From a virus: a DNA stretch of 64,000 nucleotides. Location: IMG/VR virus record IMGVR_UViG_3300008050_000026, positions 33,075-97,074 of that record; one strand, 5' to 3'. Position 1 is the stretch's first letter, and the number at the start of each line of letters is the position of its first letter. The notes beneath the pieces were generated by a model that searched no databases, was not told where the DNA came from, and saw nothing but the letters and a program-made list of their open reading frames with translations. Both the position numbers and the translations under genes were made by a program. Positions 28,267-63,799 of this stretch are shown in pieces.

Positions 28267-29199
28267 ATGAAAGACGATCTCATCTTAGGTGCTGGTACAG
28301 CTGGTATAATTACTTCACTTTTCACAAAAGCAAAAATGATAGATCCTAAGCCACTTGGTGAGCTGGGGTTACCTTTTTCACCTGGGATAAGGATCTTCAA
28401 ATGGGAACTTGAAGTTGTACAATTTATTTCATACTGGCTTCCTAAGTGGTATCCAGAATTTAGCATCAAAAGGGAAACTTTGAAAATAGGCTATAAAACT
28501 GATGATGGGGTTTTTAATTGTGCCACTGAAAAATTCAAGGAAACATATTCCTTAATAACAAGAGGAAAACAAGAATATGAACCAAGTTTTTTATCGTCTG
28601 GTCAAAATAGTATTTCATACGTATCAATCAATGGTTTAGGATACGAAGGTTCTTATGAATTCTTTTTCAAATCAGCACTTGAGTACTTGAAAACAAAAGG
28701 TAAGTTAATTGAAGAAAAAGTAACATTTGTTGATATAGGATCAAAAACAGTAAGGTGTGGTGATAAAAAATACAACTATAAGCATTTGTATTCCTGTATC
28801 AAAAGACCAATTCTTGAAAGACTTATGGATAAGATTTCAGGTGAAGATTTTTCAACAACTAAGAAATCATTTTACAGAACTATCAAAATGATAGATGGTG
28901 GTATCATGGGTTATGCTTACATCTACAGTATAACAGATGAATGGACAAGAAAAACTGAGTTTGGTCGTTACTATGTTTATGAAACAACTAAGCCAATTTT
29001 AAGTGATCATTTTGAACATGACAATGAAATAACTGATACATTTGAGGATATTCCTTTGCAAATACAGAAATCACTATCACAAACAAACTACTATGGTGTA
29101 GAACTTGTTGGTAGGTATGCAGAATGGAACCATGCAATAAAAGCAAACGAAATAATTCAAAGGTTTGCGCAACGATTAAAATTCAAAGTAAATGGGTGA
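28267..29199 (+). CDS. FAD/NAD-binding oxidoreductase resembling UDP-galactopyranose mutase or amine oxidases
   Basis: A 310-residue protein beginning with a dinucleotide-binding motif (LILGAGTAGIITSL, G-x-G-x-x-G at about 7-12) and ending with 'VELVGRYAEWNHAIKANEIIQRF', a Gly-Arg-tyrosine-aromatic C-terminal pattern seen in UGM and other flavin-dependent amine-oxidase-like proteins. Known family members convert UDP-galactose rings or oxidise amines. The middle is divergent, so substrate cannot be named. It starts a promoter and is coupled by ATG overlap to the next gene, in a block of nucleotide enzymes; it could act on a nucleotide sugar or on a modified base. Confidence 0.6.
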   Translation: MKDDLILGAGTAGIITSLFTKAKMIDPKPLGELGLPFSPGIRIFKWELEVVQFISYWLPKWYPEFSIKRETLKIGYKTDDGVFNCATEKFKETYSLITRGKQEYEPSFLSSGQNSISYVSINGLGYEGSYEFFFKSALEYLKTKGKLIEEKVTFVDIGSKTVRCGDKKYNYKHLYSCIKRPILERLMDKISGEDFSTTKKSFYRTIKMIDGGIMGYAYIYSITDEWTRKTEFGRYYVYETTKPILSDHFEHDNEITDTFEDIPLQIQKSLSQTNYYGVELVGRYAEWNHAIKANEIIQRFAQRLKFKVNG

Positions 29200-30145
29200 T
29201 AGATTAAGTGAGATATTTCGTATTCAAATCGAGTTCAGTAAAACTTGGCTTAAGAATGAAAAGAACATTGACATTTTTGATATGTCAAGGAACGACAGGA
29301 TAAAATGGAGCAAGGAATACATATTAGCAGCAGTAAATGAACTATGTGAAGCCTTAAATGAGTTGAAGTGGAAAACTCATCGCGAATTTGAAAAACAAGA
29401 CAACATAGATAATTTTAACGAGGAATGTATTGATGTTTTTAAGTTCCTTATGAACCTCCTTCTAATAAATGGTATCAAGGAGGATGATTTCTATCAAAAG
29501 TTCATTGATAAAAGTGAAATCGTCCAATTGAGGTATGAGCAGGAAAAAGCAATGACTTTGTTGAAGTTGGACCCAAACGCAAGAATTGCCATTGTTGACA
29601 TTGATGGATGCTTGAATAACTACCCGTATCACTTTCTTGAATTTACAGAAGCTGCCACAGGATTGGATTACAAAACTGTTCCAGACTTCAAAGAAGCTGA
29701 CATAGTAAATTACAATAAAGCAAAGGCCTCATATAGATTATCAGGAGGAGAACGAGGAAACGTACCTAATGAAGAAACATTCAAATTCCTACATGATCTA
29801 AAGGCACATGGTTACACGGTTGTTCTTTTATCATCAAGGCCTTATGAAAAGATCAAAAGGCTATATTCGGATACTGTTCATTGGTTGAATAGTTACAAGT
29901 TTCCTTATGATTATCTGGTATTCAATAAAAATAAGGACACCTACATAATAGACAACCTAAAAGATTGTAATGTAGAATTTTGTGTAGATGATGATTTCAA
30001 CAATGCTCAGAACCTTTCTTATCATTTTCCAACTTATTTGATGGTTAACAAGGGCCTCTACTCGTTGGAAGCCTATCTACATGCACCAAAGAAAGTAAAG
30101 GTTATAGACTCACTATTAAAAATTGAACTTACAGGTATGAAATAA
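29192..30145 (+). CDS. Fusion: all-alpha NTP pyrophosphatase (dUTPase/MazG type) plus HAD phosphatase
   Basis: A 317-residue two-domain protein. The N-terminal domain (about 1-120) has the E-x-x-E...E-x-x-D metal motif of all-alpha pyrophosphatases (E50, E53; E78 and D81 in 'NEECID') with 'LNELKWKTH'. Such enzymes hydrolyse dUTP, dCTP or other NTPs to monophosphate. The C-terminal domain (about 130-290) has HAD motif I 'VDIDGCL' (D136, D138), motif II 'LLSSRP' (S214/S215) and motif III 'VDDDFNN' (D266-D268), as in 5'-nucleotidases. Together they would turn a dNTP to nucleoside. The start overlaps the preceding gene. I know this as a plausible but unusual fusion. Confidence 0.7.
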   Translation: MGDRLSEIFRIQIEFSKTWLKNEKNIDIFDMSRNDRIKWSKEYILAAVNELCEALNELKWKTHREFEKQDNIDNFNEECIDVFKFLMNLLLINGIKEDDFYQKFIDKSEIVQLRYEQEKAMTLLKLDPNARIAIVDIDGCLNNYPYHFLEFTEAATGLDYKTVPDFKEADIVNYNKAKASYRLSGGERGNVPNEETFKFLHDLKAHGYTVVLLSSRPYEKIKRLYSDTVHWLNSYKFPYDYLVFNKNKDTYIIDNLKDCNVEFCVDDDFNNAQNLSYHFPTYLMVNKGLYSLEAYLHAPKKVKVIDSLLKIELTGMK

Positions 30146-30160
30146 TAAATTATTATTTTT
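30141..30160 (+). promoter_or_regulatory. Promoter element inside the nucleotide-metabolism block
   Basis: AATAATAAATTATTATTTTT (30141-30160), one of the cleanest copies: inverted repeat arms AATAATAA and TTATTATT around one A. The upstream stop TAA is inside it, and ATG 30167 follows the T-run after six bases. The base after the T-run is A rather than G, so the TAnnTTTG match is one base short. Confidence 0.6.
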
Positions 30161-30166
30161 ACATAC

Positions 30167-30496
30167 ATGAAAGAAACAAAAACATATTGCTTTTATCAAG
30201 AAGGTGCTGCAGAAGTTGAATTGGACTTTTGGGAAAGCATGCAAAAACAGTTTTTGAAAACAGAAGTTGAGTTCAAAGGAAAAAAGTTAAGAATTTATGC
30301 TTTGGATAAAACACCAAGGAAACAAGAAATAGAACACATGATCTGTATTCCAGATACTATTGGCATCAATGCAGAACTTCACAATTTCTTGAATAACATC
30401 AGGCCAGCAGAATACAAGAAGACATTATATTTTGGAAAGATAACTTCTGAATATGCACAAATACTTAGTAACTTTATAAAGGCTTGTAAAAAATGA
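30167..30496 (+). CDS. Unknown small protein
   Basis: A 109-residue protein starting six bases after a promoter element. It has a beta-rich front (FEKGKKLRIYALD-like) and a helical end (YAQILSNFIKACKK). There is no motif I recognise. The stop overlaps the next gene by ATGA, so it is co-translated with the kinase/UDG fusion and may be an inhibitor or partner of it. Confidence 0.5.
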   Translation: MKETKTYCFYQEGAAEVELDFWESMQKQFLKTEVEFKGKKLRIYALDKTPRKQEIEHMICIPDTIGINAELHNFLNNIRPAEYKKTLYFGKITSEYAQILSNFIKACKK

Positions 30497-31446
30497 GTGA
30501 TGTAGTTCAAATCATACACATTGATGGACCAGACAAATCTGGCAAAGATGCTATCAAGCGTGAGATAATAAAAAGAACAGGTGGGGCTGTAATGGTAATT
30601 GCCAGATCGTTCCTTTCACAAACTGTTTATGCAAGTATCTATGGTCGAGATATAAATTCTGAAGGATATTGGTTAAAAGCAAAGCAAGCTTTTCAAAGAG
30701 GTGAAACACTCATATATCTTCGTCCAGAAAAGAACTTAGGTGAAATTGAAAGGAGGTTCAAGGAACATGATGAAAAAGACATGGACTTTGAAAATTATAC
30801 CTTACATAGAACTTGGTTTGATAGAACAGTATCGTTATTGGGACACCAAGGATGTAGATATTTACAAATAGATACAACAGCACATGATATTAGTAAATGT
30901 GTTGACATTATCTTACACAAGGCACTTTCAGATTATACAAAATTCTGTTCAAATTGTTTGCTTCATACTTTGGATGTCAATCAAATGGAGGCTAAACATG
31001 GATATGGGAAGCTTGTTCCAAAAAGAAATGATGGAACTGAGTTCATGATAGTGGGAATAAATCCATCTAACAAAAGAATACCATATAATCAAAACCCTTT
31101 TGAACTTACTAACGATCCACAAACACATAAGAACAAACCTTTTTGGGATGCTCTTTGGGACCTTGGCATCGGAAATAGATCATACATTACAAATGCAGTT
31201 AAATGTAGTACAAAAAACAACAAGTTAAAAACTGTAGATTTCAAATGCTGCGAACATATTCTTCAAGCGGAAATTGAATTCATGAGACCAAAGATTATAG
31301 TCGCAGTTGGAAAAGAAGTTGCAGCATATCTAAAAGGTAAACTTGATAGACACATTATTGAAATTCAAGATCCTGAACACCATAATTTCACACATTCATC
31401 AGTATACACACTTGACGTAATAGAAAAACTAAAACATCATGTCTAA
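30493..31446 (+). CDS. Fusion: P-loop dNMP-kinase-like domain plus Fe-S uracil-DNA glycosylase-like domain
   Basis: A 317-residue protein. Residues 7-140 carry a P-loop 'GPDKSGKD' (12-19) and a LID-like basic region, as in thymidylate/dNMP kinases. Residues 150-310 resemble family 4/5 uracil-DNA glycosylases: paired cysteines C152 and C155 (FCSNC), then C238 (NAVKC) and C252/C253, the spacing of the four [4Fe-4S] ligands, a GINPS motif (188-192) at the catalytic loop position, 'CEHILQAEIEFMRPKIIVAVGKEVA', and 'THSS' where the family has HPS. The kinase part phosphorylates a dNMP; the other removes uracil or a related base. Joining these in one chain is unusual. The block context suggests control of dU or of a modified base. 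Confidence 0.72.
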   Translation: MSDVVQIIHIDGPDKSGKDAIKREIIKRTGGAVMVIARSFLSQTVYASIYGRDINSEGYWLKAKQAFQRGETLIYLRPEKNLGEIERRFKEHDEKDMDFENYTLHRTWFDRTVSLLGHQGCRYLQIDTTAHDISKCVDIILHKALSDYTKFCSNCLLHTLDVNQMEAKHGYGKLVPKRNDGTEFMIVGINPSNKRIPYNQNPFELTNDPQTHKNKPFWDALWDLGIGNRSYITNAVKCSTKNNKLKTVDFKCCEHILQAEIEFMRPKIIVAVGKEVAAYLKGKLDRHIIEIQDPEHHNFTHSSVYTLDVIEKLKHHV

Positions 31447-32398
31447 AAGAATATTCATAACTGGAGAAAGTGGTGTAATACCAAAAGCAATCATGGCGCT
31501 TTGTGAAAACTCAAACCATGTGGTTGTAAATACACATCTTAATAAAGATCTGGATGGATTACGATGGCATCAATCATTCAAGGTTAGACATCCTGAAATT
31601 GATTTCACAAACGATAGTGTAATTGAAGAGGCATTTCGAAGATCACAACCTGAAATAGTAATACATTCAGGTGCTTATGTTGGAACAGATTATTGTGCAA
31701 GTTCAAAAGATGAAGCAGTAAGATCCAATGTATATGGTACACAGAAAATTGTTGACCTGTGTAATGAACATGGGTGTAAGTTAATCTATTTTTCAACAAC
31801 GGCTATTTTCGATCCAAAAGCTTATAATAAGTATAAGTATATGACTGGACAAACTCGAATTGATCCTCAAACATTATATGGTATCACGAAATACGCTGGG
31901 GAACTGATTGTTAAGAACTTGTGCAAAACACCTTTCACCATCGTTAGACCAGTATTTGGTTTTGGTGATTATCCAGATGATCTACATTCAGCTTTGACTA
32001 AGTACATCTATTCCATAATAAATGGAAATCCTTTGACGATCCTACTTGATAGAAAAATAGGCAAGAACTATTTTAGGGTTGAGAACATTGCACAAATTGT
32101 AATGAACATCATCAATCAAAATTATTTTGGTTCTATATTCAATATAGGTGAGAATTACGACCTTAGGAAAAATTGGAATGAGATTGATGAAGTCATTGAA
32201 AGTAAGTTAGGTAAGTTTGACAATAGTAAAATCACTTTTGTACCAGAAAAGGATTACCTGCACTGGCACAATATAGATAACAGGAATTTGAAGACATTGG
32301 GGTTGTATTATGATCTACCTATCATGTTTGAACAAGGAATAGAAATGACAATCAAATCAGTTAAGGAAAATCTTGACAAAAAACCATATTGGATATGA
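31439..32398 (+). CDS. NAD-dependent epimerase/dehydratase, RmlD-like
   Basis: A 319-residue extended short-chain dehydrogenase. The nucleotide motif is 'ITGESGVIP' (third Gly replaced by Pro), the catalytic residues are S119 in 'YFSTTAIF' and Y147-x-x-x-K151 in 'YGITK'. The sequence around 'VDLCNEHGCKLIYFSTTAIFD' and 'GDYPDDL' is closest to dTDP-4-dehydrorhamnose reductases, which reduce a nucleotide-activated keto sugar. It overlaps genes on both sides by ATGA. In this operon it may use a dTDP-sugar, though the modified Rossmann Gly may change cofactor binding. Confidence 0.7.
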   Translation: MSKRIFITGESGVIPKAIMALCENSNHVVVNTHLNKDLDGLRWHQSFKVRHPEIDFTNDSVIEEAFRRSQPEIVIHSGAYVGTDYCASSKDEAVRSNVYGTQKIVDLCNEHGCKLIYFSTTAIFDPKAYNKYKYMTGQTRIDPQTLYGITKYAGELIVKNLCKTPFTIVRPVFGFGDYPDDLHSALTKYIYSIINGNPLTILLDRKIGKNYFRVENIAQIVMNIINQNYFGSIFNIGENYDLRKNWNEIDEVIESKLGKFDNSKITFVPEKDYLHWHNIDNRNLKTLGLYYDLPIMFEQGIEMTIKSVKENLDKKPYWI

Positions 32399-32901
32399 AA
32401 CCAAGAATGCGATATATTCAGTTCAAACAAGAACTTGATGATCAGATTGATATTATCAAAGTTGGTGGTCGTGATACCAAGGAAATTGTATCACTTGTAA
32501 TTGACTATGAGATCAATACCATGTCAGAAGAAGTTAACAGCTTTTTAACAGAGAAATTAACAGCTCAATCTAAAGATGATGTGAAGGAAAGAAAAATGAT
32601 CATGTTGGAACTTACAAAAACTATCATTGATCTTAGAGAGGATCCAAATTCAAGACAGATGTTAGTAAGGCCAAACTACATCGGGAACGAAAGGCTTTCA
32701 GCATGTATATCACTTGTGCATGTCTTATTTAGGAAAGGGAAGATCATTATGAATGTATATCAACGAAGTCAGAATATTGATAACTTCTTATATGACCAGC
32801 AAACATTCTTTTTCCTTGCGAAGATGGTCGCAAATACATCAGCTGTTGACAAATGCGAAATAAATGTGATCATAGGGTCACTACACAAATACTTAGACTA
32901 A
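32395..32901 (+). CDS. Short thymidylate-synthase-fold protein with dCMP-type specificity residue
   Basis: A 168-residue protein that aligns by eye to the C-terminal half of thymidylate synthase. Catalytic cysteine C104 (LSAC) is followed 19 residues later by 'YQRS' (Y122-S125), the same spacing as C146 to QRS in E. coli TS. D134 stands at the position of N177, where TS has Asn and phage dCMP hydroxymethylases (T4 gp42) have Asp. H164 and Y166 (LHKY) match H207 and Y209. The N-terminal TS half, with its Arg21 and substrate loop, is missing, so an inactive or partner-dependent enzyme is possible. It starts at ATG 32395, overlapping the upstream stop. Confidence 0.65.
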   Translation: MKPRMRYIQFKQELDDQIDIIKVGGRDTKEIVSLVIDYEINTMSEEVNSFLTEKLTAQSKDDVKERKMIMLELTKTIIDLREDPNSRQMLVRPNYIGNERLSACISLVHVLFRKGKIIMNVYQRSQNIDNFLYDQQTFFFLAKMVANTSAVDKCEINVIIGSLHKYLD

Positions 32902-33710
32902 TGGATTTCAAAGAAATAGAAGACCTGAGAAAAGCAACTGGAACATTGCCTTCGGAAAGGCCAATGAAAAATACCAATGTGTTACAATTACCAGTTGCAT
33001 TGAAAGTAACACTTGAAGATCATTCAGCAAATCCATATAAAGCCATGTTCGTTACAGCAACGAGTACATGGGGTGATAATAATTTTGAACAGAAGTGGCC
33101 AATTACTTCACCTGAAGGAAAACTGGAAGTGATAAAAGCTGTACTTACTCATAATACATTACCTCAGGCTAAGGAAATGGTCCAATTTGTATTTCGAGTA
33201 AAAGGGGTACCAAGATGGTTGTTTGATTATCATGCAACGACTGTGAAATTTGCTTCATTCATGTCCATCGGTTGTAGAGATAACAATAAGATTGACTCAG
33301 ATGTCATAACAATGGATCAAGTTGGTTCAGCAGAAATGGCAGTTTTTAGGGAATTGAAAGATCTATATGAACTGGCACTTGGTTCTGATCAAGCAAGTTG
33401 GCAATCAGCGAGAACATTCTTACCTCAATCATATTCACATTCATACCACTTTGGACAAAATTTACTATCATTGATTTCAACCAGAGGATTTCATGCATCA
33501 AAGTTCTTTGGTAATGATTTCAAAGAAGAGGCAATACAATATTTGTATCATACCATTGTAAAAGAAGTAAAACAGCACTTTCCTTTACTTGGTTTGTATT
33601 TGAACATGATGTTTAGCCATGAGGTTAAGAAAACAGTAATGGATCAACTTCATAAATTGAAGCTTGAGGATCTAAACGAAAAAGACATTGAACTATTAAA
33701 TAGGATATGA
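32901..33710 (+). CDS. Divergent ThyX-like flavin-dependent thymidylate synthase fold protein
   Basis: A 269-residue protein from ATG 32901 (MDFKEIEDL). The alignment to ThyX is visible in 'VKFASFMSIGCRD' at about 115-127, where the signature RHRxxSxNxxSxRY is degraded (RHR becomes TVK, the Asn and second Ser are lost; S119 and R126 remain). The C-terminal 'ARTFLPQSYSHSYHFGQNLLSLISTRGF' at about 170-197 matches the AR..LP...N.R..L..R block. The missing residues make ordinary dTMP synthesis doubtful. It starts in TAATG overlap with the TS-like gene, so the two TS folds are co-translated. Confidence 0.6.
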   Translation: MDFKEIEDLRKATGTLPSERPMKNTNVLQLPVALKVTLEDHSANPYKAMFVTATSTWGDNNFEQKWPITSPEGKLEVIKAVLTHNTLPQAKEMVQFVFRVKGVPRWLFDYHATTVKFASFMSIGCRDNNKIDSDVITMDQVGSAEMAVFRELKDLYELALGSDQASWQSARTFLPQSYSHSYHFGQNLLSLISTRGFHASKFFGNDFKEEAIQYLYHTIVKEVKQHFPLLGLYLNMMFSHEVKKTVMDQLHKLKLEDLNEKDIELLNRI

Positions 33711-48823: not shown

Positions 48824-48846
48824 AAAGGGGCTTTGCCCCTTTTTTT
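48824..48846 (+). terminator. Rho-independent terminator after the DUF932-like gene
   Basis: AAAGGGGC-TTT-GCCCCTTT hairpin (48824-48842), followed directly by TTTT. The stem is GC-rich, eight base pairs. It closes the 46.3-48.8 kb unit just before the next promoter element. Confidence 0.85.
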
Positions 48847-48867
48847 AATAAGTAATGATTATTTTTG
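48846..48867 (+). promoter_or_regulatory. Promoter element before the packaging/sugar operon
   Basis: TAATAAGTAATGATTATTTTT followed by G, with TATTTTTG at 48860-48867. It is directly behind the terminator. ATG 48874 lies six bases after the box; ATG 48868 is adjacent to it, which makes 48874 the better start. It would drive the candidate small terminase, the sugar genes and the large terminase. Confidence 0.65.
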
Positions 48868-48873
48868 ATGTCA

Positions 48874-49530
48874 ATGGAAATCAACAATTTCAAAGTATCT
48901 AAGCCAACATTCATTAAATCAAAGGAACAATGGAGGTTGATCAAACGAGATAATAATGACAAGGTACTTGAAAGGTTGTTCTTTGATACAAAAGAGGAGG
49001 CCGATACTATTTACATCCATTTGAAAACAGAACAAGGTGCAAAGATCAAGGCTGACGAGATTTCTTCTTCTGATAAAAACAAATCATTAGCAAAAACTGG
49101 AGATGCTAAGATCAAGGTACTTACAGCCCACGATACTATGTTTGATATGTTAGTGTCTGGTTCTGCAAGATCTACTATTGTTGAAAAATGCATGGTTGAT
49201 TTTAAGATCAATAGAAGCCAAGCGTTATTGATCCTGAAAGAAGTACTTGATACTGTGACATTATTCACACTTTCAAATATTGATGATATTATACCCATCC
49301 ACGTAAAAAGATACGAGGACATTTATGCTGCTGCTGAAACTGCTGGCTTTGATAAGTTGGCTTTGAAAGCATTGAATGCTAAGGAAAAATTGATTGGAAT
49401 GTCCAACAATAATGTTGAGGTTATCATCAACCAAGACAATTTCATTCAGGAATACAATTTTGACGATATTATTTTGAATAAGGAGGAGACAAATAAATTT
49501 GACCAAATCATGAAAAAAGCAAAAATCTAA
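48874..49530 (+). CDS. Candidate small terminase subunit
   Basis: A 218-residue protein starting at ATG 48874, chosen because 48868 directly abuts the promoter box. It is mostly helical. The C-terminal 'IPIHVKRYEDIYAAAETAGFDKLALKALNAKEKLIGM' looks like the oligomerising helices of phage small terminases, with a possible HTH region at 'STIVEKCMVDFKINRSQALLILKEVLD'. Small terminases recognise the packaging site and stimulate the motor; the large terminase lies three genes further on in the same transcription unit. Confidence 0.55.
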   Translation: MEINNFKVSKPTFIKSKEQWRLIKRDNNDKVLERLFFDTKEEADTIYIHLKTEQGAKIKADEISSSDKNKSLAKTGDAKIKVLTAHDTMFDMLVSGSARSTIVEKCMVDFKINRSQALLILKEVLDTVTLFTLSNIDDIIPIHVKRYEDIYAAAETAGFDKLALKALNAKEKLIGMSNNNVEVIINQDNFIQEYNFDDIILNKEETNKFDQIMKKAKI

Positions 49531-50150
49531 TGGCATGTTATTTGATAAGGGATAAAGAAGGCAATCCAAAAGTTGGGTTCATCCACATCTATAAGAATGG
49601 TGGAATGTCTGTAAGAAAAGAAATTGATAGGATATGCAAAGACCGAGGGTATACTCAGGAAGTTGTTGCCCAAGATGAAGGATCTTTATTTCTGAATAAA
49701 CAGGCTTTTGAACATTGGGGAGATGATTGGGGGCATGCATATAAGTTTGCAATTGTCCGATTACCTTATTCAAGAATGGTTTCATTGTATCATTTCATAA
49801 TTCAAAGAAAACAAAAACCTTTGTTTGATATGATCAAAGGAAAAAGTTTCAAGCAATTCATGCAAATGACATTTGAACATAAAACTGGAGCTAATGTAAA
49901 GCAAAAGGATTATGTTCTGGTTGACAACGTGATGCGTGTTCAACATATATGCCACCTTGAAACACTTGAACAGGATCTGAAAGTTGTAAATGCACAAACA
50001 GGTCTTGATTTTAAGATCAAACATGACAACAAGTCTCAACACAAACACTGGTCTCAGTATTTTCCAAAATCAGTATTGAATGCTACTTTTAAGTTCTTCA
50101 AAGAAGACTTCGAGCTATTCGGATACACAAAACAAGGAAACCTATCATGA
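49530..50150 (+). CDS. Sulfotransferase-like protein 1
   Basis: A 206-residue carbohydrate-sulfotransferase-like protein. The 5'-phosphosulfate-binding loop is seen in 'FIHIYKNGGMSV' (17-28; family pattern K-x-G-G/S-x-S-hydrophobic), and the 3'-phosphate site in 'FAIVRLPYSRMVSLYHF' (about 73-89; family R-x-P-x-x-R-x-x-S-x-Y). Such enzymes move sulfate from PAPS to a sugar hydroxyl. It starts in TAATG from the candidate small terminase and is coupled by ATGA to the fucose pathway genes. A second such gene lies at 63161. The natural target is unknown. Confidence 0.65.
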   Translation: MACYLIRDKEGNPKVGFIHIYKNGGMSVRKEIDRICKDRGYTQEVVAQDEGSLFLNKQAFEHWGDDWGHAYKFAIVRLPYSRMVSLYHFIIQRKQKPLFDMIKGKSFKQFMQMTFEHKTGANVKQKDYVLVDNVMRVQHICHLETLEQDLKVVNAQTGLDFKIKHDNKSQHKHWSQYFPKSVLNATFKFFKEDFELFGYTKQGNLS

Positions 50151-51076
50151 AGAAAACATCAAGGATTTTAGTAATTGGTGCCAATGGGATGGTTGGGTCT
50201 TCTTTAATGAGATTTTTGAAAAGAAAAGGTTTCAAATCTGTAATAGGTTCAACAAGGGATGATACTAATTTATTAGACTTGAAGCAGGTATCGTCTATGT
50301 ACAGAATGGCATCTGCAGAATATGTTTTCATGTGTGCAGGTAAAGTAGGAGGTATAAAGGCTAATAACGAGCAACGTGTGGAGTTCATGGAACAAAACAC
50401 ATTGATAGCAATAAATACTATTTCACAGGCATACGCTCAAGGTGTAAAGAAATTCTTGTATTTGGGATCTTCTTGTGTATATCCAAGATCTGTGGATACA
50501 CCTATTGCTGAAAGTTCTTTATTATCAGGTCCTTTGGAACAAACAAACGAACCTTACGCTTTGGCTAAAATACTTGGTATCAAGTTATGTGAAAACTATC
50601 GTTCTCAACATAACGCTGATTTCATTTCATGCATGCCTTGTAATTTATATGGCCCAGGTGATAATTATGATCTTGACTCAAGCCATGTGATGGCAGCAAT
50701 GATCAGAAAATTACATTATGCAAAAGAGGAAAATCTGAATGAAGTTACTTTTTGGGGTACTGGAAATCCTCTTCGTGAATTTGTTTATGTTGATGATCTT
50801 GCTGAAGCACTTCAGTTCTTAATGGAAAACTATTCTGAACAAGAAACAATAAACGTAGGTGCATACAGTGATTTTCATATAAAAGATCTTGCTGAAGTTG
50901 TTGCTAAGGTTATTGGATATGAAGGTGCAATTGAATTTGATCATGTTCATCCAGATGGAACTATGAGAAAAAAGGTTTCAACATCTAAAATGTCAAAACT
51001 TGGATGGACACCTAAGACAATGATTTTTGATGGAATAAAAAGAACTTACGAACAATACATAAAAACGTTAAAATGA
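50147..51076 (+). CDS. fcl: GDP-L-fucose synthase (WcaG/Fcl-like)
   Basis: A 309-residue NADPH-dependent bifunctional epimerase/reductase. The Rossmann motif is 'IGANGMVGSSL' (9-19), the catalytic residues S108/S109 and Y137-x-x-x-K141 (YALAK), and 'SSCVYP', 'MPCNLYGPGDNYD' are typical of Fcl. It turns GDP-4-keto-6-deoxymannose into GDP-L-fucose, the product of the next enzyme, encoded directly downstream. It shares ATGA overlap with both neighbours. Confidence 0.87.
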   Translation: MKKTSRILVIGANGMVGSSLMRFLKRKGFKSVIGSTRDDTNLLDLKQVSSMYRMASAEYVFMCAGKVGGIKANNEQRVEFMEQNTLIAINTISQAYAQGVKKFLYLGSSCVYPRSVDTPIAESSLLSGPLEQTNEPYALAKILGIKLCENYRSQHNADFISCMPCNLYGPGDNYDLDSSHVMAAMIRKLHYAKEENLNEVTFWGTGNPLREFVYVDDLAEALQFLMENYSEQETINVGAYSDFHIKDLAEVVAKVIGYEGAIEFDHVHPDGTMRKKVSTSKMSKLGWTPKTMIFDGIKRTYEQYIKTLK

Positions 51077-52068
51077 AAATAGCATTGATCTATGGTGTTA
51101 CAGGAATGGATGGTTCACATCTTGCTGAACTATTATTGGAAAAGGAATATGTCGTACACGGCGTAATAAGAAGATCTTCTTCTTTTAATACTGGGAGAAT
51201 TGATCATATAATCAAGGATTTGAATTTGCATTACGGGGATATTACAGATCCAAATTCTGTCAACAGTTTGATTAGTAAAATCCAACCAGATGAAATCTAT
51301 AATTTAGCGGCTCAATCTCATGTGGCTGTTTCATTTGAAATGCCTAACTATACAGGGCAGGTTGATGCAATGGGAACTACAAACATACTTGAAGCAGTAA
51401 GAAATTTGTCTCACCATTCAAAGTTCTATCAAGCATCAACATCTGAGTTATTTGGAAAAGTTGTTGAAACACCTCAAAAAGAAACAACTCCCTTTTACCC
51501 ACGAAGTCCATACGCTGTTGCCAAACTATATGGATATTGGATTACAAAAAATTATCGTGAAGCGTATGATTTGTTCGTTTGTAATGGTATTTTGTTCAAT
51601 CATACGGGTCCAAGACGCGGGGGAACCTTTGTAGAGAAGAAAATTGTTGATGGATTATGCAAATTCATTGAAGGAGGGCGAGGAATAAGACTTGGGAACA
51701 TCTATTCCAAGCGAGATATTGGTTTTGCACCTGAATATGTGGAAGGTATGTGGCGAATGCTTCAACAAGATGATCCTGATGACTACGTTCTTTCAACTGG
51801 GATTACAACTACAATAAAGGATATTGTAATTGAAGTCCTTTCGATTTTAGGAATAGAACATAAGTGGTTAGGTGAAGGCTTAAATGAAATTTGTGTTGAA
51901 AAAGGAACAGACAAAATAATCGTATCAATTGATGAGAGGTATTTCAGACCAACAGAAGTTGACTTATTACTTGGTGATAATTCAAAAGCAAAAGAGAAAT
52001 TAGGTTGGGAACCTACATACGATCTGAATAAGATACTTCATACAATGATAAAAATGGCACAGGAATGA
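51073..52068 (+). CDS. gmd: GDP-mannose 4,6-dehydratase
   Basis: A 331-residue dehydratase. 'IYGVTGMDGSHLAELLLEKEY' (G-x-x-G-x-x-G) is the NADP motif; 'STSELFG' and 'YPRSPYAVAKLYGYW' hold the catalytic Thr/Ser, Glu and Tyr-x-x-x-Lys; 'RRSSSFNTGRIDH' is diagnostic for GMD. It makes GDP-4-keto-6-deoxymannose from GDP-mannose, feeding the Fcl encoded just upstream. The pair is sufficient for GDP-L-fucose (GDP-mannose supplied by the host). Confidence 0.9.
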   Translation: MKIALIYGVTGMDGSHLAELLLEKEYVVHGVIRRSSSFNTGRIDHIIKDLNLHYGDITDPNSVNSLISKIQPDEIYNLAAQSHVAVSFEMPNYTGQVDAMGTTNILEAVRNLSHHSKFYQASTSELFGKVVETPQKETTPFYPRSPYAVAKLYGYWITKNYREAYDLFVCNGILFNHTGPRRGGTFVEKKIVDGLCKFIEGGRGIRLGNIYSKRDIGFAPEYVEGMWRMLQQDDPDDYVLSTGITTTIKDIVIEVLSILGIEHKWLGEGLNEICVEKGTDKIIVSIDERYFRPTEVDLLLGDNSKAKEKLGWEPTYDLNKILHTMIKMAQE

Positions 52069-53522
52069 TTGCTGTAGACAAGGAACTTGAAATTGAGTTG
52101 CTTAAGGAGGTATACAAACGAAGCTATTATGAATTTTTCAAAGATGCTTTCGCTTTATTACACCCAGGGGAACCTTATGATGACAATTGGCATATTGAAC
52201 ACTTATGTAATAGATTACAGCAGGAGTTATTCAGGATAAGAGCTCGAAAGAAAAGGCAACGCGATATCATTGTAAATATGCCTTTTAGATCAAGTAAAAG
52301 TTTGATCGTCACAGTAATATATCCTGCATGGGTCTGGTCTCAGGATCCTCAAGTAAAATTTATATGCACATCATTCTCCGATCCACTTTCATTAGAACAT
52401 GCTTCAAGATCAAGAACCTTGATAATGTCAGAATGGTATCAAACGCTATATGGTGACAAGGTTATTTTAAGATCAGATGAAAACACGAAATCGTTCTTCT
52501 CAACTGATCGTTATGGATTTAGAAAATCTGTAGGTACTGGTGGACAAATTACAGGATCAGGTTCTGACATCATAATAATTGATGATCCACAAAATCCTAA
52601 GAAAGCATCATCGGAAGTTGAACGACAGAATACTATTGATTTTTACGATTTTACATTATTCTCAAGATTGAACCAACCAGACATTGGAGTAAGAATAATC
52701 GTAATGCAAAGACTACATGAAGAAGATCTATCTGGACACTTAATTGAAACAAGACCCGATGATCATGAACACATTTGTTTTCCTGCTGAACTTACACCAA
52801 AAACAAGGGAATATGTTTCGCCTGAAAGTGTATTGAAACATTATCGCGATGGATTATTCTGGCATACAAGGTTCAGTAAAAAGCAACTTATTGCTTATGG
52901 TGCAGCTTTAGGATCAGTACAATATGCTGGACAACTTCAACAATTACCTGCACCAGAAGAAGGGAACATAATTAAACGAGATTGGTTTGAGATAGTTCCA
53001 GCGCATACTGTTGAAAGGGACGAATACAAGCATCCTATAAAGTTCTACCTTGATACAGCCGAAACAGAGAAACAAGAAGGTGATGCAACAGGAATTTGTG
53101 CATGTTTCAAAAAGGACAACAGGTTGTATATCACAAATGTGATCGAGGTCAGAAAAGAATTTCATCAACTCATTAAGTACATACCTGTTTTCGCTAAAGC
53201 AAATATGTATACAGGAGGTTCACAAATAAAGGTTGAACCAAAATCATCAGGTAAGTCAATTGTTTCTCAGTTAAGAACAGAAACTCAATTGAATATTTCT
53301 GAACTACCTGCACCAACAGATGATAAATTGACAAGAGCCACTGCTGTTACACCTATCATTGAAAGTGGTAGAGTTATTTTGATCCAAGGTGCATACTTAT
53401 CAAATTTCATGGCACAATTAACATCATTTCCAAACGCTAAACATGATGATATGTTTGATGCATTCATCCATGCAGTAACAGACCAGTTGGCTGGAGGGGA
53501 TTTTGACTTCGCATTTGTATGA
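52065..53522 (+). CDS. terL: Terminase large subunit
   Basis: A 485-residue packaging motor. The ATPase has a Walker A at 'NMPFRSSKSL' (about 71-80; the usual G before K is Ser) and a Walker B in 'DIIIIDDPQNP' (about 168-178). The C-terminal nuclease has D in 'FYLDTAETEKQEGDATG' (about 325-341) and 'KHDDMFDAFIHA' (about 462-473), the RNase H-like metal site. It pumps DNA into the prohead and cuts concatemers. It is the best marker of the phage in this window. It overlaps the GMD stop by ATGA. Confidence 0.87.
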   Translation: MIAVDKELEIELLKEVYKRSYYEFFKDAFALLHPGEPYDDNWHIEHLCNRLQQELFRIRARKKRQRDIIVNMPFRSSKSLIVTVIYPAWVWSQDPQVKFICTSFSDPLSLEHASRSRTLIMSEWYQTLYGDKVILRSDENTKSFFSTDRYGFRKSVGTGGQITGSGSDIIIIDDPQNPKKASSEVERQNTIDFYDFTLFSRLNQPDIGVRIIVMQRLHEEDLSGHLIETRPDDHEHICFPAELTPKTREYVSPESVLKHYRDGLFWHTRFSKKQLIAYGAALGSVQYAGQLQQLPAPEEGNIIKRDWFEIVPAHTVERDEYKHPIKFYLDTAETEKQEGDATGICACFKKDNRLYITNVIEVRKEFHQLIKYIPVFAKANMYTGGSQIKVEPKSSGKSIVSQLRTETQLNISELPAPTDDKLTRATAVTPIIESGRVILIQGAYLSNFMAQLTSFPNAKHDDMFDAFIHAVTDQLAGGDFDFAFV

Positions 53523-54436
53523 TAACACAAGACGACATACAGGCATATTCAGATAGACGAAAAGAGCTATTGAATAACAAGGCATTCAAGTCTGAATGTG
53601 GAAAATGCAATGGTGCAGGGGTGGTAATAAAGAAACGAGGAGGGGCTAAGAATAATATCTTCAGAAAATGTTCAATCTGTAGAGGATCTGGTGAAATAAC
53701 AAAAAAGGAATTTGGTGCTAAGACTATTGCTTTATCTGAGTTGTTCTATAAAGGATATACAAGGAGTGATTTGAGGCACATGCTGATAAAAACTTTCAGG
53801 TTAAATCCAGCAACTGCTGAAATGGATGTATCACGTGCTTTTCATTATATTGAAAACGAACATTCTACAAATAAAAAGGATGTCCTGTCAATTCATTACA
53901 GGAGGTATGAAAGGATCTTCAGAAAATATGCTGAATTAGATATTGAATTGGTGCCAAAACATTTACGTGGTTTGAGAATGTTTGAAGCGCTGTCAATAAT
54001 GATCGAAACCCTTCAATCAAAAGAACGTGCATTTGGAATGCATGCACAGAATTTTTCACTTAAGATCAACCAATTCAACATAGCACAAAAGAAAGTAGCA
54101 ACAAGAAATAAGTATGACTTCAAAAAATTATCATTGGAGGAACTCGTTGAAATCAAAACACTGATTGATGTTGCTAAGAAAAGAACTCAAGCAAGCATGG
54201 TTGTTGACTCAGATGTGGCTGCAGATATGGAGTTTGAAAAGATGACAAGCGCTAAAAGGCGAAAAGAAGAGGTTGAATACGATCATCCAATTCAAAAAGT
54301 AAAGACAAAAAAGCATCGAAAGGAAAAGGAATTTCAACATGTTCCTATGAAGACTGCTGATGATATTAAGAAAAAAATCAACGAGAGCTTAAAAAATAGT
54401 ATTATTGTTAGTATGAATAAGAAGAAAAATGGCTGA
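53519..54436 (+). CDS. DnaJ-type zinc-finger protein after the large terminase
   Basis: A 305-residue protein in ATGA overlap with terL. Two CxxCxGxG units (CGKCNGAG at about 27-34 and CSICRGSG at about 51-58) form half of a DnaJ-type zinc finger. A helix-rich middle (FYKGYTRSDLRHMLIKTFRLNPATAEMDVSRAFHYIE, HTH-like) and a basic C-terminal tail (KKHRKEKEF...) follow. Together with its place next to terL, it might be a DNA-binding packaging factor or an alternative small terminase. Function is not established. Confidence 0.55.
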   Translation: MITQDDIQAYSDRRKELLNNKAFKSECGKCNGAGVVIKKRGGAKNNIFRKCSICRGSGEITKKEFGAKTIALSELFYKGYTRSDLRHMLIKTFRLNPATAEMDVSRAFHYIENEHSTNKKDVLSIHYRRYERIFRKYAELDIELVPKHLRGLRMFEALSIMIETLQSKERAFGMHAQNFSLKINQFNIAQKKVATRNKYDFKKLSLEELVEIKTLIDVAKKRTQASMVVDSDVAADMEFEKMTSAKRRKEEVEYDHPIQKVKTKKHRKEKEFQHVPMKTADDIKKKINESLKNSIIVSMNKKKNG

Positions 54437-56820: not shown

Positions 56821-58378
56821 AAGGCTTTACAATCTATTAAGAAAAGAGCCTCATTCACTCATTCATGGTTACTATGATTATGACAACAACAAGATCGATG
56901 ATCGTGTAGAGTCATTAAATCTTGCTGAATTTAATCAGCCAAAAATTGAGAAGTTCATTGCTGCTATTGAAAAGGCAAATCATCCATCTTTCAAAACACC
57001 CTTGCGTCAATGTAAAAAATGGCTTGAAGTTCTCAAAGATCCATTGAATACATCTGTAGGTTCAGTATCTGGTTTCAAAACTGTAATGGAAACCTATGTG
57101 AAACAAACAAAGTCTGGATACATATACAGTTTGAATGAGGATGGAAATTATATGCCATATTGTATTGAGGAGGTAAAAGCTACTCGAGATGATGATGATG
57201 GTTATTATGTATTCATCAAAACAAAATACATTGGTACTTCACTTGATCGTGACGAATGGTCCTCAAGGAGCAAAAGCTTTGAAGAAAAATCAAGATATTT
57301 TTATTTCTATGGTGATGCATTTGATGAGAAACTATCATTGATTGATATTCTTTCAAAACAAAATCTTCATATCGAAACCCAAGAATACATAGATAATTAT
57401 GCTATGCAAATTGAGGATTTCAAAATACTAATAAATAAAGGCCAGAACAAACAATACAGAGGATTAGGTTCAGCTTTGGTTTCTGATGGTGATAGATGGT
57501 ATGCGAGAAACCGATGGATTTCAATTGATAGTAATGTTATACTTGATGCAATTCCAGATGAATTGAAAAGGAAAGCAACTGTTTCAGGTAAGAAAAGACG
57601 TATACCAATTCATCCATATTTCAAATGCTTTGATCTACAAACTCATAAGTGGTGTTTGCTTCATCCAAATTCATTAGAGGATTATGAATATAGTAAGGAG
57701 CAAATGGATAAGCTCGTCCTTGATCAAGATCTAAAAGATACGTTGAATAAGGTTCTTGCAAGTGAAGCCAAATTCAATGACATCATAGCAAATAAAGGAA
57801 AGGCTATGATTGTTTTATCAACAGGAGTACCCGGAGTTGGTAAGACACTAACTGCAGAGGTCTATTCCGAATACCATGAAATGCCATTGTACAAGGTTCA
57901 AGCCTCAAGTCTTGGTAGTAAACCAGAGGACATTGAAAAGAATTTGAAGATCACACTTGAAAGGGCATACAATTGGAATGCAGTTCTATTGATCGATGAA
58001 GCTGATACCTATGTAATGCAACGAGGAACTGATCTTGTTCAAAATGTCATCGTGGGAATATTCCTAAGATTGCTTGAATATTACAATGGTGTCCTGTTCA
58101 TGACTTCAAATCGAGTTGATGAAATTGACAATGCAATCAGGAGTAGATCTACATTGGTTATCAATTATCAACTTCCAAATGATAATCAAAGACACGAAAT
58201 TTATAAGATCTTGTTGAAACAAAATGAATTTGAATATGATGAAAATGAATTGGTTCAAATACTTCCAAGTTCTGAAGGTGACTCTGGGCGAGACATCAAA
58301 AACATAATACACAAGTTATTACTTTTGGACCTTCCACTTAATTTGACTAATGTTGAAAAAGTAAAGAAATTCATGTAA
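56801..58378 (+). CDS. AAA+ ATPase with long N-terminal domain
   Basis: A 525-residue protein. The C-terminal AAA+ module has Walker A 'GVPGVGKT' (342-349), Walker B 'LLIDEAD' (396-402), sensor-like 'FMTSNRVDEIDNAIRSR' and a C-terminal helical lid. The N-terminal 300 residues are of unknown fold. Single AAA+ modules of this type (CDC48/Bcs1-like by look) can remodel protein complexes or unfold substrates. It is flanked by the unknown 102-residue gene and a methyltransferase gene, which gives no firm clue to the substrate. Confidence 0.75.
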   Translation: MRIDLSKRLYNLLRKEPHSLIHGYYDYDNNKIDDRVESLNLAEFNQPKIEKFIAAIEKANHPSFKTPLRQCKKWLEVLKDPLNTSVGSVSGFKTVMETYVKQTKSGYIYSLNEDGNYMPYCIEEVKATRDDDDGYYVFIKTKYIGTSLDRDEWSSRSKSFEEKSRYFYFYGDAFDEKLSLIDILSKQNLHIETQEYIDNYAMQIEDFKILINKGQNKQYRGLGSALVSDGDRWYARNRWISIDSNVILDAIPDELKRKATVSGKKRRIPIHPYFKCFDLQTHKWCLLHPNSLEDYEYSKEQMDKLVLDQDLKDTLNKVLASEAKFNDIIANKGKAMIVLSTGVPGVGKTLTAEVYSEYHEMPLYKVQASSLGSKPEDIEKNLKITLERAYNWNAVLLIDEADTYVMQRGTDLVQNVIVGIFLRLLEYYNGVLFMTSNRVDEIDNAIRSRSTLVINYQLPNDNQRHEIYKILLKQNEFEYDENELVQILPSSEGDSGRDIKNIIHKLLLLDLPLNLTNVEKVKKFM

Positions 58379-59040
58379 TGGACAATTGGTTAAAAGAAAT
58401 CAAGAACAGTAACTTCAAGAAATATTCTCAATTTGGAGAAGAAGGACATCTGTTATTTATTCTTGCTCAAATTCCAGAATGTGGTAAAGACCAATTTCTT
58501 GTTGATATTGGTGCAGGTAAGAATTACTACCTCTCAAACACTAAACACTTCAAGGATATTGGATATTCAGGAATTTGGATTGATGGTGATATAAGTGAAT
58601 TGCATCCTGAAATCAAGCAACATTGGGTTACACGAGAGAACGTATGTGATCTACTTCAAATGTACAAATGTCCCCATGAGTTTGATTTGCTTTCAATTGA
58701 CCTTGATGGAAATGATCTATTCATACTTGAAAAGATCCTTGTTTATTACAGGCCAAGAGTTATTGTAGCTGAATTCAATGCTAATGTTCCTCATGGTGAA
58801 ATCAAAACGATAAAATATGATCCTCAACATGAGTGGGGAAAGGATGATTATTTTGGCTTCAGTTTTGAGGCAGGAAAGTTACTTGGAAAGATGTTTGGAT
58901 ATAAGATTGTCTACAACAATGCTGATCATAATCTTTTCTTCATAAGGGAAGATCTAATAGTTGGCCTTGAAGTACCTGAAATTACATACCACCACAGGCA
59001 GTGGCATAAGAAGTCTAACAGAAAAATGATTGACTGGTGA
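58378..59040 (+). CDS. FkbM-family-like SAM-dependent methyltransferase
   Basis: A 220-residue protein with 'YSQFGEEGHLLFILAQ' (16-31) and 'LVDIGAGKNYYLSNT' (41-55), the SAM-binding motif I, followed by 'LLSIDLDGNDLFIL' (104-117). FkbM-type enzymes O-methylate sugar or polyketide hydroxyls; the Ser-Gln-Phe-Gly-Glu-(E/D)-Gly start is characteristic. It overlaps the AAA+ stop and is coupled to a second methyltransferase-like gene, so they may modify the same glycan. DNA methylation is unlikely because no DPPY or PC motif is seen. Confidence 0.65.
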   Translation: MDNWLKEIKNSNFKKYSQFGEEGHLLFILAQIPECGKDQFLVDIGAGKNYYLSNTKHFKDIGYSGIWIDGDISELHPEIKQHWVTRENVCDLLQMYKCPHEFDLLSIDLDGNDLFILEKILVYYRPRVIVAEFNANVPHGEIKTIKYDPQHEWGKDDYFGFSFEAGKLLGKMFGYKIVYNNADHNLFFIREDLIVGLEVPEITYHHRQWHKKSNRKMIDW

Positions 59041-59651
59041 ATTACGAAGAAAATATAGAACAGGGATTGGAGAACAAAGGTAGATACAGATTACCTTTCA
59101 ACAACGATGAGTTCATTAAGGATATGGTTGTTCAATTGAAAAAACAACACAACCTGAAAATAGCAATAGAAACAGGTAGTTTCATGTATACTACATCAAG
59201 GTTCTTTGCCAATCTTTTTGAGAAGTTCATAACATTTGAGAAATCAAGTAAGTTATTCAATGAGTTCAATCACATCATTGCAGGACATACAAATGCAATA
59301 GGCCTCTGTATTGATAGTGTAGATGGATTGAAAAAATATTCACCTCAAATAACTTCTGAAACACTTATTTATCTGGATGCACATTGGGATGATAATTTTC
59401 CATTGTTAGAGGAGCTAAAGGTCATTGCTGATACAGGTGAAAAACCTCTTATCATGATCCATGATTTCAAAGTTCCTGACACAGATAGGTTCTTCTATAC
59501 ATTTAATGATGTAGATTTAGATCTTGATTATGTAGAAGAAAGTCTCGATAAAATCTATGGTAAAGACAAATATTCAATCATGTATCCTGCACAAGTTGGA
59601 ATTGAAAACGTAGGTTGTGTATTCATAATTCCTGAAAAAAGTGGAAGTTGA
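59037..59651 (+). CDS. Second methyltransferase-like protein (class I fold)
   Basis: A 204-residue protein starting at GTG 59037, in overlap with the FkbM-like stop. 'KIAIETGSFMYTTSRFFANLFEKFITFEKS' (about 41-70) matches motif I-II of SAM methyltransferases of the CmcI type, with the acidic Glu in motif II. 'LIYLDAHWDDNFPLLEELKVI' further on is similar to the DAH motif of that group. Activity on a sugar or small molecule is likely. A catalytic metal site may use the D-A-H. Confidence 0.6.
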   Translation: MNYEENIEQGLENKGRYRLPFNNDEFIKDMVVQLKKQHNLKIAIETGSFMYTTSRFFANLFEKFITFEKSSKLFNEFNHIIAGHTNAIGLCIDSVDGLKKYSPQITSETLIYLDAHWDDNFPLLEELKVIADTGEKPLIMIHDFKVPDTDRFFYTFNDVDLDLDYVEESLDKIYGKDKYSIMYPAQVGIENVGCVFIIPEKSGS

Positions 59652-62988: not shown

Positions 62989-63161
62989 TACAGAAAGCAG
63001 GAAAACCAAAAGCAGGTACAGTACATCCTTCAATTAAGAAATTTGATTGGAATATAGTAACTGGAAATACTGGTAAATGTATATGTGCAAGACCAAAAGC
63101 AATGAGTTATGGTAGAATGATCTCGTGCAATGGTTGTGGAAAACTAATATCAAGTTTCTAA
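62985..63161 (+). CDS. Small zinc-ribbon-like protein (58 residues)
   Basis: A 58-codon frame whose ATG at 62985 overlaps the previous stop. It ends at TAA 63159, overlapping the ATG of the sulfotransferase gene. Cysteines at 'KCICARP' and 'ISCNGCGK' (C-x-C ... C-x-x-C) suggest a mini zinc ribbon. Function is unknown. Confidence 0.45.
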   Translation: MIQKAGKPKAGTVHPSIKKFDWNIVTGNTGKCICARPKAMSYGRMISCNGCGKLISSF

Positions 63162-63799
63162 TGGTTGTTTCAGATAAATACAATTTCATCTTTGTTCATA
63201 TACCTAAAACAGGAGGTAGATCAATAAGAACAATACTGAAAGATCATATAGAAATATCTACTCATCATCGATTAGAAAATATGAATAGAAATCGAATACA
63301 TGCTCATCTTACATTATACGAGATAAGAAAGTATTTGAATGGCTATAGTTTTGATAATAAAGGCAATGTAAAACCATTACAAGATCCTATCAAGCGATTT
63401 GAAGGGAAAAAGATCTTTACTGTAATGAGAAATCCATGGGATTGGGTAGTAAGTTACTATGAATTCATAAAGAGTAGAAGACGTCATCCAAAATATTTTG
63501 AAGTAAATGCAATGAGCTTTAAGGATTTTATAAAGTCAGATTATGTCAAACCTCAAGTAAATTACATTTGGAATTTTACAACAAATAGTATCTGGCCAGA
63601 AACTAAGATAATTCGTTTCGAAGATCTTCAAAAAGGATTTAATGAAATGCTGCTGGAAGTTGGTCTTCATCAAATGCAATTACCTCATTTACATAAAACA
63701 AAAAGAGGAAAATATCATGAGTATTATGATGAAGAAACAAAATCGTTAATAGCCAATAAGTTTGCAAAGGAAATAGAACTATTAAAATACGAATTTTAA
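63161..63799 (+). CDS. Sulfotransferase-like protein 2
   Basis: A 212-residue carbohydrate sulfotransferase-like protein. The 5'-PSB loop is 'FVHIPKTGGRSI' (11-22), an excellent match to the family (x-H-I-P-K-T-G-G-x-S), and the 3'-PB region 'IFTVMRNPWDWVVSYYEF' (about 85-102) matches R-N-P-x-D/R-x-x-x-S-x-Y. It would transfer sulfate from PAPS to a glycan. The start at ATG 63161 (TAATG overlap) is preferred to the long frame at 63125. It is more canonical than the sulfotransferase-like protein at 49530, with which it shares the fold but not close sequence. Confidence 0.8.
   Translation: MVVSDKYNFIFVHIPKTGGRSIRTILKDHIEISTHHRLENMNRNRIHAHLTLYEIRKYLNGYSFDNKGNVKPLQDPIKRFEGKKIFTVMRNPWDWVVSYYEFIKSRRRHPKYFEVNAMSFKDFIKSDYVKPQVNYIWNFTTNSIWPETKIIRFEDLQKGFNEMLLEVGLHQMQLPHLHKTKRGKYHEYYDEETKSLIANKFAKEIELLKYEF

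Follow-up and report, generated by a model that had tools for sequence, protein, structure and literature searches.

What would a sulfotransferase-like gene and two genes of a GDP-L-fucose route do directly upstream of the large terminase gene of a phage? This question is raised by a 64,000-nucleotide stretch of viral DNA (the window), which covers bases 33,075-97,074 of the 97,074-bp virus record IMGVR_UViG_3300008050_000026; the remaining ~33 kb of the record lie outside it. In this study, we found that the three genes form an inserted cassette between a small-terminase-like gene, TerS1, and the large terminase gene, terL. We tentatively propose that they belong to a modular pathway, encoded by the phage itself, for a methylated and sulfated glycan that contains fucose and is most likely carried on virion proteins. 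Positions are those of the window unless they are given as genome positions.

A cassette inserted between TerS1 and terL

The cassette consists of a Sulfotransfer_2 gene (sulfotransferase 1, ST1; 49530-50150), an fcl-like gene for a predicted GDP-L-fucose synthase (50147-51076) and gmd, for GDP-mannose 4,6-dehydratase (51073-52068), all on the plus strand. The three genes occupy exactly 49530-52068, each with an intact frame. ST1 and the gene ahead of it share 1 nt, and 4-nt ATGA overlaps join ST1 to fcl, fcl to gmd and gmd to terL. An earlier interpretation made from the letters of the window (the sequence-only reading) had placed these genes upstream of terL in coupled frames, and it was exact in both coordinates and frames.

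Read in reverse, the entire record is collinear with Chryseobacterium phage MA9V-3 (PV245944.1), with 46% identity in terL and 35% in DNA polymerase III alpha. A protein of ~490 amino acids, taken as the major capsid protein, is 61% identical to its MA9V-3 counterpart. The terL product (52065-53522, plus strand) matched PHROG 38 (1.5e-82) and Pfam Terminase_6C, and is 46-54% identical in relatives. In two of these, G004 (terL 54%) and G005 (terL 50%), TerS1 homologues adjoin terL across a gap of ~254 and ~296 bp, respectively, and no cassette lies between them. In MA9V-3, the TerS1 homologue stands beside a UvrD-like helicase gene, 6.3 kb from terL, and the cassette is also absent. Since the TerS1-terL gap is short in G004 and G005, gene order indicates that the 2.5-kb cassette is an insertion in this phage. 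A foreign origin judged by composition was unsupported, as the GC content and the GC content at third codon positions (GC3) of fcl and gmd match those of terL and the genome.

TerS1 (48865-49530, plus strand) had been called a candidate small terminase. It is indeed a conserved upstream neighbour of terL in the two relatives, and its position indirectly supports a putative small-terminase role. TerS1 matched no terminase small-subunit family in Pfam or PHROGs, and a distant paralogue with a zinc-ribbon-like N-terminus, TerS2 (53519-54436, plus strand; 24% identity over 118 amino acids, E 1e-5), lies just downstream of terL. TerS2 also gave a DnaJ_CXXCXGXG match (5e-5) below the Pfam cut-off. 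A terminator-like hairpin (AAAGGGGCTTTGCCCCTTT plus a T tail; 48824-48842, plus strand) stands just ahead of the operon that holds the cassette; it is a weak signal alone, with three such hairpins found versus 2.4 expected in shuffles. MA9V-3 is annotated with a tmRNA (L003:22766-23124) between its TerS1 homologue and terL. ARAGORN and Rfam found no tmRNA, tRNA or other Rfam match in the window.

Predicted GDP-L-fucose synthesis and sulfation

Gmd scored 465.1 bits with TIGR01472, over the curated equivalog cut-off of 415, and matched GMD in the PDB (4e-112). Its catalytic motifs are present (STSELF at 122 and YAVAKLY at 147, corresponding to Ser/Thr-Glu and YxxxK). The Fcl-like protein is full length, and NF047922 was by far its best model (389.3 bits). 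Its best PDB match was GDP-fucose synthetase (4e-82), and S108, C110, Y137, K141 and H180 align with the catalytic Ser, Cys, Tyr, Lys and His of the E. coli enzyme. Synthesis of GDP-L-fucose from host GDP-mannose by Gmd and the Fcl-like enzyme, as the sequence-only reading had predicted, is thus well supported by family, length and catalytic residues.

ST1 matched Sulfotransfer_2 (PF03567; E = 4e-9, 37.3 bits, over the Pfam gathering cut-off of 22) and PHROG 3347. Residues H19, K22, G25 and S27, together with R77, P79 and S85, were conserved across 28 aligned phage homologues, and the conserved motifs HIxKxGGxS and RxPxxxxxS correspond to 5'-phosphosulfate and 3'-phosphate binding. The ST1 model had a predicted local distance difference test score (pLDDT) of 93.5, and its top PDB fold matches were sulfotransferases with modest scores (best E 2.6e-3, template modelling score about 0.4-0.5). 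By family, motifs and fold, ST1 is plausible as a sulfotransferase dependent on 3'-phosphoadenosine 5'-phosphosulfate (PAPS). No adenosine 5'-phosphosulfate (APS) kinase is encoded in the phage, so PAPS must come from the host. The proposal that ST1 sulfates a fucosylated glycan is plausible as to enzyme class; the fucosylated target and the destination of the glycan are inferred. A second sulfotransferase gene, ST2 (63125-63799, plus strand), matched Sulfotransfer_2 (9e-6, 26.4 bits, cut-off 22) and PHROG 3347 (2e-11). The family and PDB match scores exclude a chance identification of ST1, Gmd, the Fcl-like protein and TerL.

Close ST1 relatives were found neither in annotated phages nor, by single-protein search, in viral contigs. 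An alignment of ST1 and ST2 was required to find 70 viral contigs with relatives. Among eight records searched, several of which are fragments, Sulfotransfer_2 occurred in this phage only. The 70 contigs often hold two to seven copies in a row, and arrays of this size were seen in single contigs L127, L128, L132, L136, L140 and L153, where the copies appear to diversify in place. Some contigs combine sulfotransferase and gmd genes: the order is fcl, gmd, sulfotransferase and GT11 in L187, FkbM, gmd and sulfotransferase are adjacent in L174, and sulfotransferase and gmd also occur together in L129/L131.

Candidate methyltransferases and glycosyltransferases

We next consider which genes could assemble and methylate a glycan. 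A putative FkbM-like methyltransferase gene, MTx (58378-59040, plus strand; Pfam FkbM only 0.046), overlaps a second putative methyltransferase gene without a family match, MTy (59037-59651, plus strand). MTx homologues adjoin fcl-gmd in L020 (4e-27), which holds the closest Gmd found (65%), and also lie close to gmd in L026 and L027. MTy homologues stand beside MTx homologues and gmd in L020, L026 and L027.

Between the portal and capsid genes, outside the window, lie a fusion of a glycosyltransferase (GT)-like protein with an FkbM methyltransferase (genome 8762-10123), a stand-alone GT-like homologue (genome 10116-10805) and a Stealth_CR2-like protein (genome 12809-13546; 35.3 bits versus a Pfam cut-off of 39.4). 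The two GT-like proteins are homologous to each other. They were recognised by no family library and had no PDB sequence match, and a first alignment gave no relatives in viral contigs, whereas an alignment of the GT-FkbM fusion did. The fusion recurs in an Acidobacteriota metagenome-assembled genome (30% over 427 amino acids), where the protein beside it carries GT2 domains, and also upstream of the GpA-type terminase gene of an unrelated phage contig. In L192, a relative of the stand-alone protein overlaps a GT10 fucosyltransferase gene and adjoins an FkbM gene. The model of this relative (pLDDT 75.5) matched nucleotidyltransferases and GT-A enzymes, which have the nucleotide-diphospho-sugar transferase fold, and an N-x-D motif was invariant in five aligned family members. 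Four lines of evidence from sequence and model point to the pair as candidate GT-A-like glycosyltransferases, although they may instead be nucleotidyltransferases. In an unrelated phage contig (L189:5971-11492), the genes for the small and large terminase lie between a GT-FkbM fusion and a further GT-like gene, the same neighbourhood as in the present phage.

The sequence-only reading had stated that no glycosyltransferase is visible in the window. This is right for recognisable families, but the two GT-A-like candidates and the Stealth_CR2-like protein lie in the 33 kb outside. These proteins, ST2 and the MTx/MTy pair had all been missed.

Glycan gene sets, lineage and host

Relatives carry different glycan genes between the portal and capsid genes. 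In G004, this interval holds two GT11 alpha-1,2-fucosyltransferases, GT2, GT25, an epimerase, three FkbM genes and a Stealth-like gene. In G005, it holds Gmd, a DegT aminotransferase, GT2, a TOD1-type GT, FkbM and Stealth-like genes, in which Gmd and DegT could possibly form a GDP-perosamine-type route. None of these glycan families lies between the portal and capsid genes of MA9V-3. These comparisons support the view that the lineage exchanges glycan gene sets between relatives, and the gene content suggests that phages of this kind probably make glycan coats of their own and exchange them.

Several proteins of the portal-capsid interval in this record (genome 13578-18856 and 24499-27771; L001:13578-17000, L002; outside the window) share a 36-52-amino-acid stretch near the N-terminus, GELDKSGKNIKTANGWVPVK. 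The stretches are up to 80-85% identical while the protein bodies otherwise differ, resembling a common targeting or packaging tag. Three further proteins have a second common stretch of that kind.

MA9V-3 is a strictly lytic myovirus, and its plaque halos were read as polysaccharide-degrading activity (PMC13120357). The lineage as a whole looks lytic. In the present record, Shine-Dalgarno-like motifs preceded only 11 of 98 genes and the leaders were A-rich, which fits a Bacteroidota host; the host is thus probably a member of this phylum. The record showed no terminal repeat.

The replication module contains a row of nucleotide-metabolism genes: a dUTPase/HAD protein (29192-30145), a dTMP-kinase-like/uracil-DNA-glycosylase fusion (30493-31446), a thymidylate-synthase-like fragment (32389-32901) and a Thy1-like gene (32853-33710). 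Together they possibly form a set for thymine DNA hypermodification. An RmlD/epimerase-type nucleotide-sugar reductase gene lies inside this region (31439-32398), and a 310-amino-acid protein at 28267-29199, which matched no family, has a dinucleotide-binding-like motif (LGAGTAG) in its N-terminal part.

Proposed pathway and alternative explanations

In the pathway that we tentatively propose, Gmd and the Fcl-like enzyme would convert host GDP-mannose to GDP-L-fucose, and phage transferases, of which the GT-A-like pair and the Stealth_CR2-like protein are the best candidates, would build a short glycan. An FkbM-type enzyme, and possibly MTx/MTy as well, would methylate it, and ST1 and ST2 would add sulfate from host PAPS. 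As acceptor, a capsid or tail protein is most likely, which would give a charged, lineage-specific coat. The genes of this predicted pathway would be split over several places among the late and packaging genes. We infer both that a single glycan is the substrate of all these enzymes and that the virion is the acceptor. A virion acceptor is favored because the lineage looks lytic, because the genes lie in late structural and packaging modules and because relatives differ in their sets, a pattern expected for an exposed coat. The strictly lytic life of MA9V-3 likewise favors a role within infection or on the virion over lysogenic conversion.

Several results weigh against this proposal. The Fcl-like protein falls below the curated NCBIfam cut-off of its best model (389.3 versus 500 bits), and we therefore use the name fcl-like. 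The glycosyltransferase search over the whole record gave the candidates outside the window, but no match to the fucosyltransferase family GT11 (PF01531), of which G004 has two members, and no GT2. Genes for gmd or fcl were present in 10 of the 70 sulfotransferase loci and in 0 of 26 random viral stretches, none of which held sulfotransferase, gmd or fcl genes; this association gave p = 0.035 uncorrected and 0.06 without near-duplicates. Conversely, none of 80 contigs with the closest gmd relatives carried a sulfotransferase nearby, so that the pairing is uncommon. On this count we rejected a general association of phage sulfotransferases with gmd: the combination recurs in a few unrelated phage contigs but is not general.

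The strongest alternative differs from a virion glycan in the acceptor. In this alternative, which we consider rather unlikely, the pathway would alter the host cell surface during infection (lipopolysaccharide, capsule or exopolysaccharide), which could serve, for instance, to block superinfection or to stop released virions sticking to debris. Cyanophage gmd-fcl-fucosyltransferase clusters, such as that of S-SRM01, have been read in this way (PMC9602691), the Stealth_CR2-like gene recalls capsule-type sugar-phosphate transferases, and the plaque halos of MA9V-3 (PMC13120357) imply that surface glycans matter for the lineage. However, this appears to be a lytic lineage whose glycan genes sit in packaging and head modules, where late expression would leave little time for rebuilding a surface, and no recognisable gene for a polymerase, a flippase or polysaccharide export was seen.

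It is less probable still that the cassette is a passenger (moron) from another phage or a bacterium, whose pieces form no single pathway and whose ST1 has some unrelated small molecule or protein as its substrate. The absence of the cassette at this site in relatives, the many phage contigs with sulfotransferase arrays but no gmd, and the fact that a sulfotransferase substrate is unreadable from sequence would all agree with a passenger. Against it, three intact and tightly overlapping frames sit inside an essential operon, fcl and gmd match terL and the genome in GC and GC3, and MTx/MTy, the second sulfotransferase and the GT-like genes of the same genome point to one theme. We know of no sulfotransferase that acts on DNA, and this, together with glycan genes that are not clustered with the replication module and GT10, GT11 and FkbM partners in relatives that suit oligosaccharides rather than bases, makes it very unlikely that the sugars decorate bases of the phage DNA, in a hypermodification blocking host nucleases, even though the genes at 29192-33710 could be a thymine-modification set and DNA-modifying phage glycosyltransferases are known (cited in PMC12619734).

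A virion glycan thus remains our preferred, tentative explanation. Its extension to Bacteroidota tailed phages in general, which would build sulfated, fucose-containing, methylated virion glycans with sugar sets interchangeable between close relatives, is doubtful at present. If true, these phages would possess an equivalent of variable surface antigens, and phage sulfotransferases would have a function. Natural phage particles may then differ in surface sugars and charge, affecting adsorption, persistence and immune recognition.

Comparison with known systems

The sequence-only reading knew of no described phage system of this type. This holds only in part: cyanophages carry gmd-fcl with annotated fucosyltransferases, and phage sulfotransferases have been reported, their function being called unclear. 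The Synechococcus phages S-SRM01 and S-SCSM1 and the Prochlorococcus phage P-SSM2 encode, as here, gmd with fcl or a second nucleotide-sugar epimerase, an FkbM methyltransferase and glycosyltransferases (PMC9602691). In S-SRM01 these form a single contiguous cluster; its annotated members include fucosyltransferases (NodZ, alpha-1,2), and none is named as a Sulfotransfer_2 gene. In the present phage, the genes are scattered, with part of them between the TerS-like gene and terL, and there are two sulfotransferases and no recognised fucosyltransferase.

In mycobacteriophages Che8, Rita and related F1 phages, phage glycosyltransferases are proposed to decorate virion proteins, and glycans were found on the capsid and tail tube (cited in PMC12619734 and PMC11256854). 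These accounts mention no GDP-fucose pathway or sulfotransferase; here, a virion glycan is predicted from genes. Chlorovirus PBCV-1 makes GDP-L-fucose with its own GMD and GMER, as predicted here, and has fucose in its capsid glycan (PMC5408694). Unlike the present phage, it is a eukaryotic algal virus with functional evidence, and no sulfotransferase is mentioned.

Sulfotransferases are carried by many environmental phage contigs, and those of OM43 phages belong to the same family or superfamily as here (Sulfotransfer_3 there), their function being called unclear (PMC10580990). The present phage differs from other phage sulfotransferase carriers in having two copies in a genome with a GDP-fucose pathway. 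In the literature searched, phage, sulfotransferase and GDP-L-fucose were named together only in a review of selectins. Two sulfotransferases and a complete GDP-fucose route, together with a cultured member, MA9V-3, that lacks such genes, make a sulfated, fucosylated virion glycan a testable question. GDP-fucose pathways of phages, glycans on virions and sulfotransferases of phages were each known before; what is new is that they occur together, where the cassette is inserted and that relatives swap glycan sets.

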